Shown piece after piece: positions 2,407 through 59,979 of a stretch of 64,000 bases of DNA (positions within the stretch are counted from its first letter, which is position 1; each line of letters opens with the position of its first letter). The stretch spans positions 374,563-438,562 of the forward strand of contig NC_009635.1 of assembly GCF_000017185.1 (NCBI RefSeq). The letters are read 5' to 3'. Origin of the DNA: Methanococcus aeolicus Nankai-3. Lineage in GTDB: Archaea > AGJL01 > Methanococci > Methanococcales > Methanococcaceae. Both the position numbers and the translations under genes were made by a program. A model generated the notes under the pieces. The model did not search any database. It saw nothing but the letters and a program-made list of their open reading frames with translations, and was not told the origin of the DNA.

Positions 2407-2690
2407 TATGGTTAATCTTAATTAAATGTCCTCATATATTTAATATTCATGGCCATTCATTGTCCACCCTAAGTTATTAAATAAAATCTCTTCGAGATTT
2501 TATACAAAATCGAAGATTTTATAAACAAAATCTTTTAGGAGTTCATACCAAAGCATAACTTTTGCAAACAAAATCCTTTTAGGATTTTGTACAAAATCGA
2601 AGATTTTGTAAATAACTTTCTTTATTTTTAGTAATATGGAGATTTTGCTTATGGTGGTATGGTAATGAAATTGTCCGAAAATTGACCATA
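2407..2690. repeat. MITE-like element, copy A
   Basis: An AT-rich block bounded by imperfect terminal inverted repeats: the left end reads TATGGTTAATCTTA and the right end, reverse-complemented, reads TATGGTCAATTTTC. Inside are several perfect hairpins: AAAATCTC/GAGATTTT with a TTC loop (2488-2506), ACAAAATC/GATTTTGT-type arms with a GAA loop, and AAAATCC/GGATTTT (about 2570-2587). The internal hairpin block is shared with copy C. It fills most of the 514-base gap between the ZPR1 gene and the regulator gene. An open frame through it on the minus strand is only the translated hairpins and is not a gene. Confidence 0.7.
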
Positions 2691-21647: not shown

Positions 21648-21819
21648 TATAGTTAATCTTCAATAACTGTCCATATCCGTCCCAAATCATTAAATAAAAT
21701 CTCTTCGAGATTTTGTACAAAATCGAAGATTTTGTAAATAAATTTCTTCGTTTTTTAGTACTGGATAAATATTTACATATAATAGGCGATTTAGGGAAAT
21801 ATTTCGAAGATTTACTATA
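21648..21819. repeat. MITE-like element, copy C
   Basis: A 172-base element with the clearest ends of the family: left TATAGTTAATCTTCAATAAC, right CGAAGATTTACTATA, forming a 14-base terminal inverted repeat with one mismatch and TA at both tips. The interior carries the same AAAATCTC/GAGATTTT and ACAAAATC/GATTTTGT hairpins as copy A. It ends 25 bases before the rfbC start, so it replaces or forms the leader of rfbC. No open frame of its own. Confidence 0.75.
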
Positions 21820-22401: not shown

Positions 22402-23561
22402 TTAGAGAAAGTGAAATTAAAGAAATACTATCAATTTTAGAGGGAGAACCTAACTTAATATATTTCATCTACGGTTCTATAAATAGTGGAAAATCTACTT
22501 TAATTAGAGAAATTATAACAAATAAGTTGGATAAATCAAAATATATACCATTTTTTATAGATTTTAGAACAAGGAATGTATTAAATGTGGATAACTTTAT
22601 TGAATGTTTATTTGAAGTGGATGAAAAATCAAAAGTGGATGATTTTAGAGAGTATGCCAAATCATTGGCTGATTTATTGGTTAATGGGTCTGAGGAGTTA
22701 AGCAAGTATTATTTGGGAGCTCCCATAAGAATTCCAAAATCACTTTTTGATAAGATTTTTGCTAAAAAAGATAAATCTGGCGATGTTTATCAATATATGG
22801 AGTATTTATTTGCTAAATTAAATGAAAAAGGGAAAATACCAATATTGATATTCGATGTCTTGGAAAACTTCGTTTTCCAAAATCTTTGTCGCTCCGCTCC
22901 AAAGAATCTCCAAATGATTAAAGAATTAACATTAAATGGAAATAGATTACTATTGTGGAGTTTATTCCAATTCTTAGTGGCATTAACTAAGGTTCAACAC
23001 TTATGTCATGTATTTTGTTTAAGTTCTGATAGTTTATTTATTGAGTATGTTTATAATACTGGTGAGCTCGAAGGAAGGGCAAAATATATATTAATAGAAG
23101 ATTTTGATAAAGAAACATCTTTAAAATTTATGGACTTTTTGGCAAAAGAATTATTAAAATCAGAATTATCAAAAGAACAGAAAGAGTTAATTTATTCCTA
23201 TGTTGGTGGAAAACCCATTGATATAATCTATACAATTAATGAAATGAAATATAGGAAATTAGAAGATATTTTAAATGAAATGTTAAATGATAGTATTCAA
23301 AAATTAGACATGCTTCTAAATAAATTAGATTATATAACACCAAAAATATCCATTGAAAATGAAATTATTGAAATTAAGAAAGAAGATGTTGTTAATGCAC
23401 TAAAATTATTTAAAACTAAATATGAGATTGATAAAAAGGCTATTAGCACGCCTGTATATATTTACTTAATCAAAGAAAATATTTTATTCCTTAATCCACA
23501 AAAAGGGATATTAAAACCGCAGTCATATTTGGTATGGAATGCTATTAAAGAGATAGTTTAA
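22401..23561 (+). pseudogene. Archaeal ATPase gene with lost start codon and disrupted Walker B
   Basis: The frame encodes a member of the archaeal ATPase family found in many copies in Methanococcales. Walker A ([12 protein letters not shown]) lies at about 22470-22505, upstream of the first TTG (22527), so the gene must start earlier, but no ATG, GTG or TTG exists before it; the frame opens at 22392. A TTA at 22398 or ATT at 22401 sits after GGGTGAG. The family normally has an aspartate-glutamate Walker B followed by LQ. Here the glutamate is replaced by a 51-base hairpin-rich block (22857-22907), adding 16 residues net. The rest, including [19 protein letters not shown], is intact. It may be a decaying gene or a protein using a rare start. 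Confidence 0.6.
22857..22907 (+). repeat. Hairpin block inserted in frame in an ATPase gene
   Basis: The block contains TTGGAAAAC/GTTTTCCAA arms around a TTC loop (22860-22880), then CTTTG and CAAAG arms around a GC-richer loop (22884-22903). It splits what would otherwise read as a normal Walker B in this family. The length is a multiple of three. The AACTTCGTTT core resembles hairpins at 53.9 and 54.3 kb. Confidence 0.6.
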
Positions 23562-35865: not shown

Positions 35866-37001
35866 TATTCCACCAAATTTTCAATATCTTTAATTAATTT
35901 TTCCCAGGAAAATTCTTTATTTTTAATTTTGATATTTTCCGTAAATTTCCTTTCTTTATCATTTTTAAAATAATTGATTATGGCACTAGCCAATTCTTCT
36001 GAATTTTCTGACTTAACAATAATGCCTGTTTTATTGTCATCAACAACATCTGGTAACCCACCAACATTGGTAGTAATAACAGGTTTTTCAAATGCATAAG
36101 CAGTTTGGATAACTGCACTTTGAGTAGCGGAAATATAGGGTAGAACAACAACATCAGCAGCAGAAAAATAAATTCCAACTTCTTCATCAGGAATATATTT
36201 ATCAATTATTTTTATATGGTTTTTAATACCTAATTTTTTAATTTCATCAATATATTTGTCCTTATCATCCCAGAATTCACCAACAATTAATAAATTAATA
36301 TCATCAACTTCGTTTATAATTTTAGGCATGGATTTAATAAGATATATTAATCCCTTATATTCCCTAATGATACCAAAAAACAATATTATTTTTTTATTCC
36401 TATCAATGTTTAAAGATTTTCTTGTATCTTCTTTTGATGTCTTTTTTGTTTTAAATATATTATATGTTGGAAGAACGCTTTGTTTTACTTTTGCATTAGG
36501 AATTATTTTTTTTAAATTATTATAATCTTCTTTTGAATGAACTATAAAATAATCCACATTTTTAAAAGCCATTTTTATTAAAAACTCATCTATTTTTGTT
36601 CTCTCATGAGGTAAAACATTATGGCATATATATAATATTTTTATGTTGGTGAATTTCTTTAATAAGTATGTAATTGTAAAAAATACAAATGTAAAAAATG
36701 GATGTACCCATTGAAAAATTACTAAATCAGGATTTTCGTTTTTGATTTTTGAATATGTTTTAATCCAGGTTAATGGATTTATAGTATCTATTATATATTC
36801 AAAATTTGTAGTTTCATTTACTTTTATGTTGCTATCTTTATTTATCTGTTCTTTCCCAGGATACAAAAATGATGGATACTGCCTTTTGTAAGAAATCAAA
36901 AATACATTATGCCTTTTTGATAATTCATTACATAATGTAGTGTTATAATGGGATATTCCTCCTTTATATGGATATGTAGGACCGACTAAACATATTTTCA
37001 C
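35865..37001 (-). CDS. Family 4 glycosyltransferase
   Basis: A 378-residue GT-B enzyme with GPTYPYKGGISHYNTTL at the N-terminus and a FGIIREYKGLIYLI donor-domain start near residue 205. The E-x7-E region is divergent (SATQSAVIQTAYAFEKPVI), lacking the first glutamate of the usual EGFG box. GTG start with AGGTGAAACT upstream. It shares the minus-strand operon with its neighbours; specificity unknown. Confidence 0.85.
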   Translation of the reverse strand: MKICLVGPTYPYKGGISHYNTTLCNELSKRHNVFLISYKRQYPSFLYPGKEQINKDSNIKVNETTNFEYIIDTINPLTWIKTYSKIKNENPDLVIFQWVHPFFTFVFFTITYLLKKFTNIKILYICHNVLPHERTKIDEFLIKMAFKNVDYFIVHSKEDYNNLKKIIPNAKVKQSVLPTYNIFKTKKTSKEDTRKSLNIDRNKKIILFFGIIREYKGLIYLIKSMPKIINEVDDINLLIVGEFWDDKDKYIDEIKKLGIKNHIKIIDKYIPDEEVGIYFSAADVVVLPYISATQSAVIQTAYAFEKPVITTNVGGLPDVVDDNKTGIIVKSENSEELASAIINYFKNDKERKFTENIKIKNKEFSWEKLIKDIENLVE

Positions 37002-44158: not shown

Positions 44159-44205
44159 CTCCATATAATTATTATGGAATTTGAAAATATAAAAGCTTTT
44201 GCATA

Positions 44206-44222
44206 CAAAAGCTATGCTTTTG
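44206..44222. repeat. Hairpin in the manC upstream gap
   Basis: CAAAAGC and GCTTTTG arms with a TAT loop form a perfect 7-base-pair stem. Flanking AAAAGCTTTTG increases self-complementarity. Apart from copy D, this hairpin and a GGAGCTCC at 44307, the 44017-44323 gap shows nothing that looks coding. Confidence 0.5.
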
Positions 44223-44323
44223 TTCAAAATCACAAATCATTTTACAGTCATAAAACGAAATATAAAAAAATAAAAATAAAAATATATTTTAATTTTGTTC
44301 TGTATGGGAGCTCCCTACGAAAT

Positions 44324-53232: not shown

Positions 53233-55211
53233 TAAAGTTCCCCCAATATCTTTTTAATTTTTTCAAAATATTCTGTTTTCACAGATTTATCCAATCGTGC
53301 TCTTTCATAAGTGATTTTTTCATGTATTGCCGTAATAAAATTTAAGTCAGGATATAATTCAGGATAATTCTCTTTTATTTTAAAAAGGAGCTCCCTTGGA
53401 GTTAATTGTTTTGAAATATTATATTTTTTTACCAACTCCCCAAATAATATTTTATATGCCTCTTCAATTAATTCAAATGATAAATAATCATCAATTTGAG
53501 TTTCTTCTGCAATATTTAAAGGCTGTTTCCCCGCTTCTTCTTTTTCCGATAAATCAATTATTTTATTATCATTGTCGGAGGATTCTTTATTATTTATTAA
53601 ATTATTTCTTTTGAAATATATCAATATAATTAATATAATTGCCATTAACATTAATAAATAAGAGAATATCCCAATTCCATCCTCTACGAATAACCTTATT
53701 TCATTGGATTTTGAAGGAGCATATATATTGTCCCCGCCATAAGTGGCATAAATTATATAATTTCCAGAATTATTAATTGAAATATTTACATCAAATTTAT
53801 CTTTTGATTGTATTGTGGCATATTTTGTATTATTAACAAATATATTAATACATTTATAATCATTTGCCCCCTCGGGTCTTTGATTTTGTTCAAAAGACGA
53901 AGTCTTTGGTGTGTAAATTTGCCCAACTATTTCTATATTTTCCCCCTTTGAAATAGCATTATTTTTATTATTATTTTTTGTTTCAATTACAATATTCACA
54001 GGATATCTTAAAAATTCAACTTTTACGGATTTATTGGATTTTTGATATATTGAAGTTCCATTGTATTTTAACGGTAAATCAGTAATTCCTCCGATATTGG
54101 ACTGTTTTATTATAGAAAATTTTCCATTATTTAATTTATAATATTTGCCATTCTCCGATATATACCCATCAACTGGATTATCATTTTTATCTACCACCAC
54201 CCCATTTATTCTGACGGTTTTATTTACGAATGCAATATATTTTGGTTCTGTCAATATGTAGGTGGGAATTTTTGAAACTTCTACAACTACCACATTTGAA
54301 GTTAAATTATTTTGTGTATCAAATCTTTGAGATGGTTCAAAATACGAAGTCTTTTGTGTAGCATAAATTTCATAATATCCAGTTTCATTAAAGGAATAAT
54401 TCATTGAAAATATATTGTCTGTATTATTGACCTCATAAATATTATTTCCTACTGTTAATTCTATTGAAGTATTGGGAGCTCCCCCTCCACCATATATAAT
54501 TATATTATCAAATAATGCTGGTTTTTCATTTGAAACTTTAATATATAAACCTGTGGAATTAACTGGGAGCTCCATATATCTGCTATCTACAATATTTTTA
54601 TATTGTTCATATCCCCCAATATATAATTTAATTATGTTCCTTATATTTGAGGTATTAAAATATAGTGTATTATTCTTCTGTTTTAAATTAGAAATATTGT
54701 TAATATTATCTAAATTATTGTATAATAATTCAATAGTATCATTTATTTCTACAACTGTTAATTTAGCATTTTTGATACTATTGGTCGTATTTTCATTTAA
54801 ATCATTGATTAAATTGTAATTTAATTCACATAATTTATTTAAATTATTTGAAAAATTATAAAAAGGACCAATTACCAACATTGATGGAGACGATATATTT
54901 TTAGACTGATAATATATAATCTCCTGCTGGGTTAATTTTGTTTTATTGTATACTAAAATAGAATTATTTAAATATGAGGGGTCTTCCTGTACCATCTGTC
55001 CAATAATTGTAGAATAATCATTCAATATATCACTGAAATATTGATGAGTATATGAATCGTCTTGTTCTAACAATGAAGGATTTACAGAATTTCCATTTAT
55101 AGGATTTAATATTATCATTAATATTAAAAAAGCATATATTGTTGTTCGTTTCGAAACTTGTTTTATTGTATTATGCTTTTTTACGCCCAATTTAAATATA
55201 TTTTTTTTCAT
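53232..55211 (-). CDS. Membrane-anchored Ig-like protein with DUF4129-like C-terminus
   Basis: A 659-residue protein with an N-terminal membrane segment, a long helical region, two or three Ig-like domains outside, a transmembrane segment near residue 525 and a ~120-residue cytoplasmic end containing LTPRELLFKIKENYP and ITYERARLDKS, as in DUF4129. Two related hairpin-containing segments are in frame: KTSYFEPSQRFDT and KTSSFEQNQRPEG. ATG after GGTAGT. It starts the MoxR/DUF58 operon. Confidence 0.68.
   Translation of the reverse strand: MKKNIFKLGVKKHNTIKQVSKRTTIYAFLILMIILNPINGNSVNPSLLEQDDSYTHQYFSDILNDYSTIIGQMVQEDPSYLNNSILVYNKTKLTQQEIIYYQSKNISSPSMLVIGPFYNFSNNLNKLCELNYNLINDLNENTTNSIKNAKLTVVEINDTIELLYNNLDNINNISNLKQKNNTLYFNTSNIRNIIKLYIGGYEQYKNIVDSRYMELPVNSTGLYIKVSNEKPALFDNIIIYGGGGAPNTSIELTVGNNIYEVNNTDNIFSMNYSFNETGYYEIYATQKTSYFEPSQRFDTQNNLTSNVVVVEVSKIPTYILTEPKYIAFVNKTVRINGVVVDKNDNPVDGYISENGKYYKLNNGKFSIIKQSNIGGITDLPLKYNGTSIYQKSNKSVKVEFLRYPVNIVIETKNNNKNNAISKGENIEIVGQIYTPKTSSFEQNQRPEGANDYKCINIFVNNTKYATIQSKDKFDVNISINNSGNYIIYATYGGDNIYAPSKSNEIRLFVEDGIGIFSYLLMLMAIILIILIYFKRNNLINNKESSDNDNKIIDLSEKEEAGKQPLNIAEETQIDDYLSFELIEEAYKILFGELVKKYNISKQLTPRELLFKIKENYPELYPDLNFITAIHEKITYERARLDKSVKTEYFEKIKKILGEL
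53880..53920. repeat. Hairpin repeat in a coding region, copy 1
   Basis: AAAGAC and GTCTTT arms around a GAA loop; the coding strand reads CAAAGACTTCGTCTTTTGAA. The longer unit, about 35 bases, resembles the one at 54.33 kb at about four of five positions and encodes KTSSFEQNQR. Confidence 0.55.
54325..54365. repeat. Hairpin repeat in a coding region, copy 2
   Basis: The coding strand reads CAAAAGACTTCGTATTTTGA, an imperfect hairpin around a TTC loop, and encodes KTSYFEPSQR. It is the partner of the copy at 53.9 kb in the same gene. Confidence 0.55.
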
Positions 55212-57258: not shown

Positions 57259-59979
57259 ATGAAAATTTCAGTAATAGGAACAGGATATGTTGGCTTAATT
57301 CAAAGTGTAGGTTTGGCAGAGTTTGGATTTGATGTAGTAGGTATAGATATAGACGAAACTAAGGTAAAACGACTTAATGAGGGTAAATGTCCATTGTATG
57401 AAGATGGTTTGGAGGAGCTCCTAACAAATAATATAAATAAAAACTTAAAATTTACAACCTCATACCAGGAGATAAAAGATAGTGATATTATTTTTCTATG
57501 TGTGGGGACCCCCCAAGATGAAAAAGGAAATGCAGATTTAAGATTTATTTACTCCGCCACAGAATCGATTAAAAAACAGCTAACAAAGGACAGTTATAAA
57601 GTTATAGTTCTAAAATCCACAGTACCAATTGGAACAAATAGAAAAATTAAGGAATCGTTAAAGGATTATATCGTTGATGTTGTTTCAAATCCTGAATTTT
57701 TAAGGGAGGGAATTGCAGTAGATGATTTCTTTAATCCTGAAAGAATTGTATTGGGATTTGAAAATTTAGAAAATAAAAAACCAATTGAAGCGATGAAAAA
57801 AATATATGGGGAATTTGAAGATAAGGGAGCTCCCATAATTATCACAGATTGGGAAAGTGCTGAAATGATAAAATATGCTTCCAATGCCTTTTTAGCTACA
57901 AAAATTTCCTTTGCAAATGAATTATCAAAATTATCCGATGAAGTTGGTGCAGATATAAAAACCATAAGTGAGGCCATGGGAATCGATAAAAGGATTGGAA
58001 ACAAGTTTTTAAACGCTGGAATAGGCTATGGCGGAAGCTGCTTCCATCCTGATGAAATACTATTTGTGGATTTTGGAGATGGATTAGAATGTATGGCATT
58101 TAAAGAACTATTTGACGAGCTCAGTAGAGACAATAATAGAAGTGTGAAAATATTATCCATCAATAAAAATTTAAAATTGGATTTAGCAAATCTAAAATTA
58201 ATAACAAAAAGAGATTACTCTGATGATTTAATTGTTTTAAAAACGACAATGGGAAGAGAAATAAAAATAACAAAAGACCATCCTGTTGTTGTGTTGAATG
58301 GAGATAAACTACATGTTAAATTAGCGGAAAATATTAAAGAAGGGGATGAAATAGCACTACCTAAGGGGGAATTTAATAGTAATAGTAATATTAATAATAT
58401 AATTACAATCGATATATTGGAAGAAATAAAAAATACCCCATTAATTGAAAAAACATATTTAAATAATAAAAATATGGTGTTAAATGAATTTGAGAATATA
58501 AGAGCTCATCTATCAAACAAATATATTCACGATATAAAGAAGAATGGAACCGTAAGAGCAAAGGATATGTTACCAATAAGAAGCATATTAAATAAATATA
58601 ATTATAATTCAAATAGGCTATTCACCGTTAGAAGCAAATCTACAACAATTCCATCAGTTATAAAAATAGACGGCGATTTTGCTAGATTAATAGGATATTA
58701 TTTAGCAGAAGGTTGGATTTCAGAGGATGGTAAAAAAAATGGTGCTATTAGAAAAAGAATTAGTTTTTCATTCGGAGCTCATGAGGAAGAATATATCAAC
58801 GATGTTAAAAATATATTGAATAAATTGGATATAAATTATATCGAAAAAATTAGAAATGGTTCCCATTCCATAATAATATCTTCAAAATTGTTGGCATATA
58901 TCTTCGAAGAGGCATTAAAATGTGGAAATAATTGTTATAACAAGCAAATACCGCCACAAATATTTAATTCACCATCAGATATTAAATGGGAATTCTTAAA
59001 AGGTATTTTAAGGGGAGATGGAGGTATTGTTAAATTAAATAATAACAAGAACCTAAACATTGAATATGGAACAGTCAGTAAAAAATTGGCAAATTCTTTG
59101 ATGATATTATTACAATCGTTGGGCATAATCACATCATTAAAAAGATGCTACAATAACAAAAGCACAACATTAACCTATATTATAAGGATAAACGGATTAA
59201 ACCAGGTTAAAAAAATCGGAGAATTATTTGGGGATAAATGGAACAATTACAAAGAAATTGCAGATAATTATGAAAGAAATATAAAACCTATTGGTTATAA
59301 AAAATTTGATAACTATGCATCATTAAAGGTTAAATCCGTTGAAAGAGAATATTATGGCGGAGAAGTATATAGTGTAGAAACAGATAATAATTTGTTAATA
59401 TCTTCTTATGGATTGTTAATTCATAACTGCTTCCCAAAAGATGTTAGGGCACTTATAAATCAGTTTGAAAACCACAATATCTCCCCAAAATTGATTAAAG
59501 CCACAGATGAAGTAAATGATGAACAAATAAAATGGTTCTTCGATAAAATTAAAAATTATTATAACAACGATATTAATCAAAAAACCTTTGCAGTGTTGGG
59601 ATTGGCATTTAAGCCAAATACTGATGATTTAAGAGAAAGCAGAGGTATAAAATTAATTGATTTGCTGTTAGAAGATGGTGCAATAGTTAAGGGCTTCGAT
59701 TATGTTGAGAAAGCGAGAGAAAATACCATTAATAAATATAAGTTGGATAAATCAAAAGCATTTTATGGATATAATTTATATGTATTAGATGATTTATACG
59801 AAACTGTAAAAGATGTTGATGCCATTATAATAACTACGGAATATGATTTCAATGATGAAGATTGGGAAAAAATAAACAAATTAGTTAAGGATAAAGTTGT
59901 ATTTGATGGTAGAAATATTCTCGATATGGACAAAATAAAGAAATTGGGATTTGAGTATTATGGGGTAGGTAGGAAATGA
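57259..59979 (+). CDS. UDP-glucose 6-dehydrogenase precursor with intein
   Basis: The 906-residue precursor contains a 443-residue host enzyme split by a 463-residue intein. The host starts MKISVIGTGYVGLIQSVGLA with the NAD loop, has IFLCVGTPQ and SNPEFLREG, and its active site is GYGGSC, where the intein begins at Cys261. After the intein the host resumes CFPKDVRAL at Cys724, so splicing rebuilds GGSCFPKD. It makes UDP-glucuronate (or a related uronate) from UDP-sugars. It shares four bases with the epimerase gene that follows. Confidence 0.95.
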   Translation: MKISVIGTGYVGLIQSVGLAEFGFDVVGIDIDETKVKRLNEGKCPLYEDGLEELLTNNINKNLKFTTSYQEIKDSDIIFLCVGTPQDEKGNADLRFIYSATESIKKQLTKDSYKVIVLKSTVPIGTNRKIKESLKDYIVDVVSNPEFLREGIAVDDFFNPERIVLGFENLENKKPIEAMKKIYGEFEDKGAPIIITDWESAEMIKYASNAFLATKISFANELSKLSDEVGADIKTISEAMGIDKRIGNKFLNAGIGYGGSCFHPDEILFVDFGDGLECMAFKELFDELSRDNNRSVKILSINKNLKLDLANLKLITKRDYSDDLIVLKTTMGREIKITKDHPVVVLNGDKLHVKLAENIKEGDEIALPKGEFNSNSNINNIITIDILEEIKNTPLIEKTYLNNKNMVLNEFENIRAHLSNKYIHDIKKNGTVRAKDMLPIRSILNKYNYNSNRLFTVRSKSTTIPSVIKIDGDFARLIGYYLAEGWISEDGKKNGAIRKRISFSFGAHEEEYINDVKNILNKLDINYIEKIRNGSHSIIISSKLLAYIFEEALKCGNNCYNKQIPPQIFNSPSDIKWEFLKGILRGDGGIVKLNNNKNLNIEYGTVSKKLANSLMILLQSLGIITSLKRCYNNKSTTLTYIIRINGLNQVKKIGELFGDKWNNYKEIADNYERNIKPIGYKKFDNYASLKVKSVEREYYGGEVYSVETDNNLLISSYGLLIHNCFPKDVRALINQFENHNISPKLIKATDEVNDEQIKWFFDKIKNYYNNDINQKTFAVLGLAFKPNTDDLRESRGIKLIDLLLEDGAIVKGFDYVEKARENTINKYKLDKSKAFYGYNLYVLDDLYETVKDVDAIIITTEYDFNDEDWEKINKLVKDKVVFDGRNILDMDKIKKLGFEYYGVGRK
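58039..59427 (+). other. Intein in UDP-glucose dehydrogenase
   Basis: Residues 261-723 of the precursor. It starts with Cys and ends with His-Asn (LLIHN) followed by Cys, the classical splicing residues. Block B-like TKDHPVV follows near residue 335. Two LAGLIDADG-type motifs, LIGYYLAEGW (477-486) and LKGILRGDGG (580-589), mark a homing endonuclease domain with apparently intact acidic residues (E484, D587). Its host site is the catalytic cysteine region, where excision is essential for activity. Confidence 0.95.

Follow-up and report, generated by a model that had tools for sequence, protein, structure and literature searches.

Probable in-frame copies of a short palindromic repeat in protein genes of Methanococcus aeolicus, and a second hairpin insert in ATPase genes of Methanococcales

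The host gene and its two repeat segments

The window analysed here is a 64,000-nt stretch of the Methanococcus aeolicus Nankai-3 genome. One of its genes, predicted to encode a membrane protein, carries two similar short segments (Table 1). The AlphaFold model of its product (mean pLDDT 75.7, pTM 0.52) predicts, in this order, a helical N-terminal part, an Ig-like beta region, a transmembrane-type helix and a helical C-terminal domain. In the model, copy 1 occupies a coil between strands 425-433 and 453-459, and copy 2 spans the last part of strand 278-290 and the coil after it. Only two stretches of the modelled beta region have pLDDT <50 (residues 295-298 and 437-444), and each lies within one of the two inserts.

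The first-pass annotation had described two segments of about 35 bases, each with an ACTTCGT hairpin core, in one reading frame and 445 bases apart. Both segments indeed share one frame of the 659-aa ORF, and the core-to-core distance was measured as 447 nt (149 codons). Their similarity also stands, since 27 of 32 bases are equal in copies 1 and 2 and the next best place in the window reaches 22 of 32. However, the ACTTCGT heptamer alone is not significant: the window contains it four times and shuffled sequences 1.55 times on average, and 9 of 100 shuffles reach four. As a link between the parts it was rejected, being by itself without enrichment in the window; beyond the two copies it occurs only at 22867, in an ATPase gene, and at 36307. 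Neither copy folds better than shuffled sequence (z -0.44 and +0.30). Both window copies are degenerate and have lost the hairpin fold, and the hairpin nature ascribed to them applies to fuller copies elsewhere in the genome, whose hairpins are intact.

Rfam gave no match over the two copies at E values up to 1, and two CRISPR-repeat hits elsewhere in the host gene fell below the gathering cut-off. Near the start of this gene, positions 55148-55184 scored 38.4 bits for RF01378, a CRISPR repeat family with a cut-off of 43 (E 0.00014 in a small search). In a host-protein scan of the named genomes, 202 stretches fitted the pattern and none was confirmed. Elsewhere in the window, a nucleotide-sugar dehydrogenase-like ORF of 906 aa (57259-59979) has an apparent mid-protein intein, as judged from its translation.

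Table 1. Features of the window and further repeat copies in the genome (window positions unless marked as genome positions)
Feature	Position	Strand	Remarks
Host gene, 659 aa	53232..55211	minus	ORF; AlphaFold model; Pfam Big_3_5 match below cut-off only
Copy 1, 42-nt in-frame insert encoding TPKTSSFEQNQRPE, residues 434-447	53871-53912	minus	gap in orthologues
Copy 2, 42-nt in-frame insert encoding TQKTSYFEPSQRFD, residues 285-298	54318-54359	minus	gap in orthologues
ATPase gene, PF01637 ATPase_2 and MJ1010-like C-terminal domain	22527..23561	plus	carries 48-bp insert
48-bp double-hairpin insert	22858..22905	plus	placed one base past the Walker B Asp codon
Row of three triloop hairpins (2481-2503, 2568-2590, 2590-2610)	2481..2610		outside ORFs of at least 100 aa
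Two triloop hairpins (21696-21714, 21716-21736)	21696..21736		outside ORFs of at least 100 aa
Triloop hairpin ACAAAAGC-TAT-GCTTTTGT	44205..44223		degenerate linker, one mismatch, at 44240-44255
Precorrin-2 dehydrogenase gene	60.5-61.1 kb of genome		three copies: long unit at one site; short and long unit in tandem at the other
GMC oxidoreductase gene	184.8 kb of genome		one copy
Intergenic copies	720.4 kb and 760.7 kb of genome		no start-to-stop ORF of at least 60 aa spanning them

Copies in the genome and empty sites in orthologues

The genome-wide search for the 35-base unit that had been proposed as a check was done on the whole genome (1,569,500 bp, one contig). The repeat family has eight known copies in M. 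aeolicus Nankai-3, of which six lie in frame, distributed over five sites of three unrelated genes, and two are intergenic. A pattern search recovered seven of them, and a DNA search added the eighth, at 760.7 kb, in which the first hairpin is altered. One hairpin tip of this copy (L011) is inverted, with GGC-TTT-GC for GGC-AAA-GC, as if the loop had flipped. An 18-base core of the repeat was found at seven places with no or one mismatch and at three more with three mismatches, whereas the reversed control pattern was found at one.

Units occur in two lengths. The shorter (42 nt) is made of the hairpin CAAAAGAC-TTC-GTCTTTTG, a spacer and the hairpin CAAATC-AAA-GATTTG, and reads TQKTSSFEPNQRFD. 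The long unit (102 nt) has an additional 60-nt two-hairpin module in the middle of the short unit and reads TQKTSSFEPSQTFPEEKFYDCKNGKAILKNQRFD. Fuller copies carry several intact hairpins with a three-base loop. The sequence of copy 2 (..CCATCTCAAAGATTTG..) would be explained if a long unit had lost the stretch between two of its TCAAA repeats. Both units are stop-free multiples of three; four of six frames are open in the short unit and three in the long unit, and one identical frame is used in all six coding copies, which always read TQKTSSFE..QRFD. Moreover, copies in unrelated genes have codons in common, including TCG for serine. This is an uncommon codon (18 of 242 serine codons in 11 window ORFs, host gene included) and it occurs in most copies.

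At all five coding sites in the three genes, the element is absent from every informative orthologue aligned. A match to the host gene was present in 8 of 22 genomes, own genome included, and both segments are 14-residue gaps in six of six aligned orthologues (an orthologue fragment, L081, and a second piece, L082, were excluded from the alignment). The expected absence of KTS(S/Y)FE from orthologous proteins was thereby borne out. For the precorrin-2 dehydrogenase, all 18 informative relatives are without the element at both sites, L066 not being counted because of a wrong frame. Three of the 18 relatives have unrelated extra residues at the second site, suggesting that this loop tolerates any kind of insertion. 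For GMC oxidoreductase, 21 relatives had a match and the segment is absent in all 11 aligned orthologues. The peptide itself matched at nine places in its own genome and, in the family's other 21 genomes, at a single place with weak support (E 0.6, G014). The repeat is nearly limited to one genome, and for this reason no strain-to-strain empty site is available for it.

Related hairpins and the ATPase insert

The annotation had also connected the two segments with an ATPase block at 22.86 kb and with MITE hairpins through a common core. ACTTCGT is present in the ATPase block, but the block is a different, 48-bp element, which folds as two hairpins (z -4.6). The other window hairpins (Table 1) share the style of a three-base loop and do not contain ACTTCGT, so that part of the connection fell away. 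The ATPase block and these hairpins follow the same plan as the 35-base unit but are elements in their own right, not copies of it.

Perfect hairpins with three-base loops are abundant in this genome: 264 kb contain 72, where Markov controls have about 6 and hairpins with four-base loops number 9. The window contributes 10 (Markov mean 1.0; loops of 4-8 bases: 1, 0, 1, 0, 1), and 200 kb of sampled stretches contribute 62 (Markov mean 4.9; loops of 4-8 bases: 8, 4, 0, 0, 3), these 10 stretches being hand-picked and four of them containing loci already examined. Outside ORFs of at least 100 aa lie 63 of the 72, though such ORFs cover 79-92% of the sequence, and only two of the nine inside them are recognised elements. 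A linker, TTTTACAGTCGTAAAA, joins many of the hairpins, with 21 matches at up to two mismatches compared with 2 for the control. Among 13 relatives sampled at 40-60 kb each, G016 is also hairpin-rich, with 16 in 60 kb (Markov 1.3), although its hairpin sequences differ; 40 kb of G012 and of G026 yield 5 each (Markov 0.8 and 0.6), G019 and G023 have 3 each, and the remaining eight have 0 or 1. Hairpin chains from 10 loci had no Rfam match at the gathering cut-off.

In WecB, too, the 60-nt module probably lies in frame, and residues 26-51 of this protein have no counterpart in 4neq. Another candidate gene for this module is a disulphide oxidoreductase, whose matches begin near residue 34, which a wrong start codon may also explain; a tRNA methyltransferase and HycI are further putative cases. 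Searches of solved structures gave no coverage of the insert regions of the GMC protein and the tRNA methyltransferase, and the MAFFT alignment of 60-nt modules is very gappy.

Two further repeats were observed. Three identical 23-base hairpins, CAATAACTCT-GAA-AGAGTTATTG, recur at an interval of 56 bases in L086:14806-14969. The palindrome GGAGCTCC occurs 40 times in the window, whereas five Markov sequences contain 0-1 each; ten own stretches have 11-21 and G011 has 5-7 per 20 kb (window and L083-L095). It is reminiscent of the highly iterated palindromes known from cyanobacteria, and the listings of a literature search showed no archaeal case.

The ATPase insert occurs eight times in 4 of 36 Methanococcales genomes (own 1, G011 1, G003 3, G014 3); a phylum-level search covered the same 36 genomes, and none was found in the viral contigs searched. 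All eight inserts sit at one site, after the Walker B Asp codon. The G011 orthologue of the window ATPase (94% identical protein) has the same flanks and a clean gap in place of the insert. Similarly, the carrier G003_C74 and the empty G011_d are identical in 1136 of 1161 ungapped columns (about 98%), with a net difference of 48 bp at the insert site, and the insert is the sole difference among sizeable gaps. The insert edges are ambiguous, with empty genes reading GAY-GAR-(L codon) and filled genes GAYG-48 bp-AY-(L codon); hence the Walker B Glu codon is always lost in carriers. Frames are broken in 5 of 8 carriers against 0 of 21 empty genes (p 0.0005), a biased comparison, because the empty genes were picked from good matches with an intact motif.

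How this insert came to lie in several paralogues may be read in different ways. A single ancient insertion with vertical descent and many precise losses would account for the constant site, and the tree is unable to tell gain from loss. This history is nonetheless very unlikely. The insert is 92-100% identical among carriers where the 150-bp flanks are mostly 61-80% identical (own versus G003_C65 reach 88 and 90, and G014_C26 versus C33 reach 94 downstream), and each carrier genome has its own version, common to its paralogues. For example, the three G014 copies have in common a paired stem change, from AAAAC-TTC-GTTTT to AAACC-TTC-GGTTT. Moreover, in a tree of 29 ATPase genes built without the insert, from which the empty locus L168 of G016 had been dropped for want of the motif, carriers require 7 changes, 6 of them forced by well-supported branches, and shuffled carrier labels require 7.1 on average, so that the real carriers are equally scattered.

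Spread from paralogue to paralogue by short gene conversion, that is, homologous recombination with no site-specific insertion machinery, has about even odds in our judgement. All three G003 carriers have GAC before the insert and TTGCAG after it, whereas two of their empty orthologues (G011_a, G011_c) have GAT and one (G011_a) has CTCCAA. Two of these carriers thus have flank bases in common with the third that their own empty orthologues lack, pointing to short gene conversion in G003. One G014 carrier pair is 94% identical downstream and 66% upstream. On the other hand, the flanks of the G014 carriers resemble those of their own empty relatives, and conversion would require tracts barely exceeding 48 bp between genes that are 61-80% identical. 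It is also conceivable, though we consider it rather doubtful, that hairpin micro-elements of Methanococcales invade protein genes and that the 48-bp kind repeatedly re-enters the Walker B codon in several species, with genome-specific versions carrying paired stem changes. We lean slightly towards homology-driven transfer between paralogues over site-specific insertion.

Origin of the repeat and its relation to known elements

We consider the two segments of the host gene to be degenerate copies of a short palindromic repeat, inserted in frame and spread by DNA copying, with a probability of roughly 0.8. Scattered copies and empty sites are seen directly, and from these we infer movement. The suggestion that a small palindrome moves or is copied and can sit at coding positions is thus supported. 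The alternative, protein-level conservation of KTS(S/Y)FE as a motif repeated within the Ig-like region and without DNA copying, would fit the position of both segments in the beta-rich part of one protein, but it is extremely improbable and was rejected. Both segments are missing from all six orthologues, where this alternative would have the same residues in unrelated codons; the peptide is nearly confined to its own genome, and the same codons recur in the dehydrogenase, in the GMC oxidoreductase and between genes. Empty sites in orthologues, common codons and the constant use of one reading frame favour DNA copying over protein-level conservation.

A less remote candidate, which we nevertheless hold to be somewhat unlikely, is a classical MITE or REP-type element mobilised in trans by a DNA transposase or a Y1/RAYT enzyme. 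Small size, hairpins and scattered copies agree with it, and hundreds of similar triloop hairpins would be expected genome-wide by extrapolation from the counted 264 kb. However, no target-site duplication is consistent in the flanks of the eight copies, and their terminal inverted repeats are weak, the ends having only CAAA/TTTG in common. The transposase search covered PF01797, the Y1 type. In the own genome it found two fragments in different frames (319142-319464; L116, L118), in G014 an intact gene (L115) and in G003 a fragment at a contig end, and none in the hairpin-rich G016. A REP/RAYT system with an active Y1 transposase was rejected, the own-genome PF01797 gene being broken. With no consistent target-site duplication and the sole Y1-type transposase found in the genome broken, we judge template switching to be somewhat likelier than a dedicated transposase.

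According to the DNA-copying model, new copies would be made from existing units, possibly by template switching at short homologies, and would land at many places. Selection would then remove copies that are out of frame, contain stops or fall in the protein core. Copies in surface loops may persist as harmless extra peptide while their hairpins decay.

By analogy, the closest known kind would be the Rickettsia palindromic elements (RPE). These are outlined as elements of about 150 bp in ten families, with 44 copies in R. conorii, nearly half of them in ORFs, and in-frame fusions among them (PMC10969869), and genes with RPE domains have been listed across rickettsiae (PMC2635572). As in that outline, short palindromic repeats are here scattered in one lineage and lie in frame in unrelated genes with a recurring peptide (PMC10969869), and copies are also intergenic, 2 of 8 in M. 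aeolicus. Hairpin DNA is present in the fuller copies, and in-frame copies are absent from orthologues at 5 of 5 coding sites in 3 genes. However, the archaeal repeat is built of units of 42 or 102 nt with three-base-loop hairpin modules in place of about 150 bp, and a sister element recurs at one codon of one gene family. The host, by gene content and relatives, is a Methanococcales-type archaeon and not Rickettsia; the repeat would not be counted among the RPE families proper, and the likeness is one of kind, drawn from descriptions of RPE. The repetitive hairpin elements of sponge mitochondria (RHE/DHE), as summarised in PMC2800124, are likewise scattered chains of short hairpins (single, double, multiple) whose spreading mechanism is not established. 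They lie mainly in mitochondrial intergenic regions and rRNA genes according to the same summary (PMC2800124), whereas some archaeal units are read as protein.

Hairpin inserts inside protein genes also recall the bypassing elements (byp). These are hairpin-bearing inserts of about 50 nt in protein genes and are described as mobile. Those of Magnusiomyces mitochondria receive mention in PMC8211752. Unlike byp, the archaeal inserts are stop-free multiples of three, 5 of 8 ATPase carriers have a broken frame, and take-off and landing codons do not match in a conserved way at the ATPase insert: TTG stands early in the insert and is followed after it by TTG in 3 carriers, TTA in 3, CTC in 1 and CTT in 1. 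RNA splicing or bypassing of the ATPase insert is not supported, since matching codons are lacking and many carriers are frame-broken. With MITEs and REP/REPIN, which are non-coding, the repeat shares small hairpin elements in many copies. However, the combination of terminal inverted repeats and target-site duplication that marks MITEs was not found in the eight copies, the search for PF01797 gave no intact partner transposase, and the intact Y1 gene that marks REP/RAYT systems is missing in M. aeolicus. A literature search of titles and abstract beginnings showed no such elements reported in Methanococcales, which does not prove their absence.

Protein-coding palindromic elements are known mainly from Rickettsia and relatives, and the same habit probably occurs here in a cultivable archaeon. 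Near-identical filled and empty sites in such an organism would make possible a direct test of element movement and protein survival. The ATPase insert is the better case for this: eight sites are filled, orthologous sites are empty and the target codon is fixed. Should insertion rather than gene conversion explain its recurrence at one site, the insert would rank as a very small homing-like element. If the re-entry reading is true, it would be the smallest known site-specific element of this kind, one that has no gene of its own and kills its host gene.
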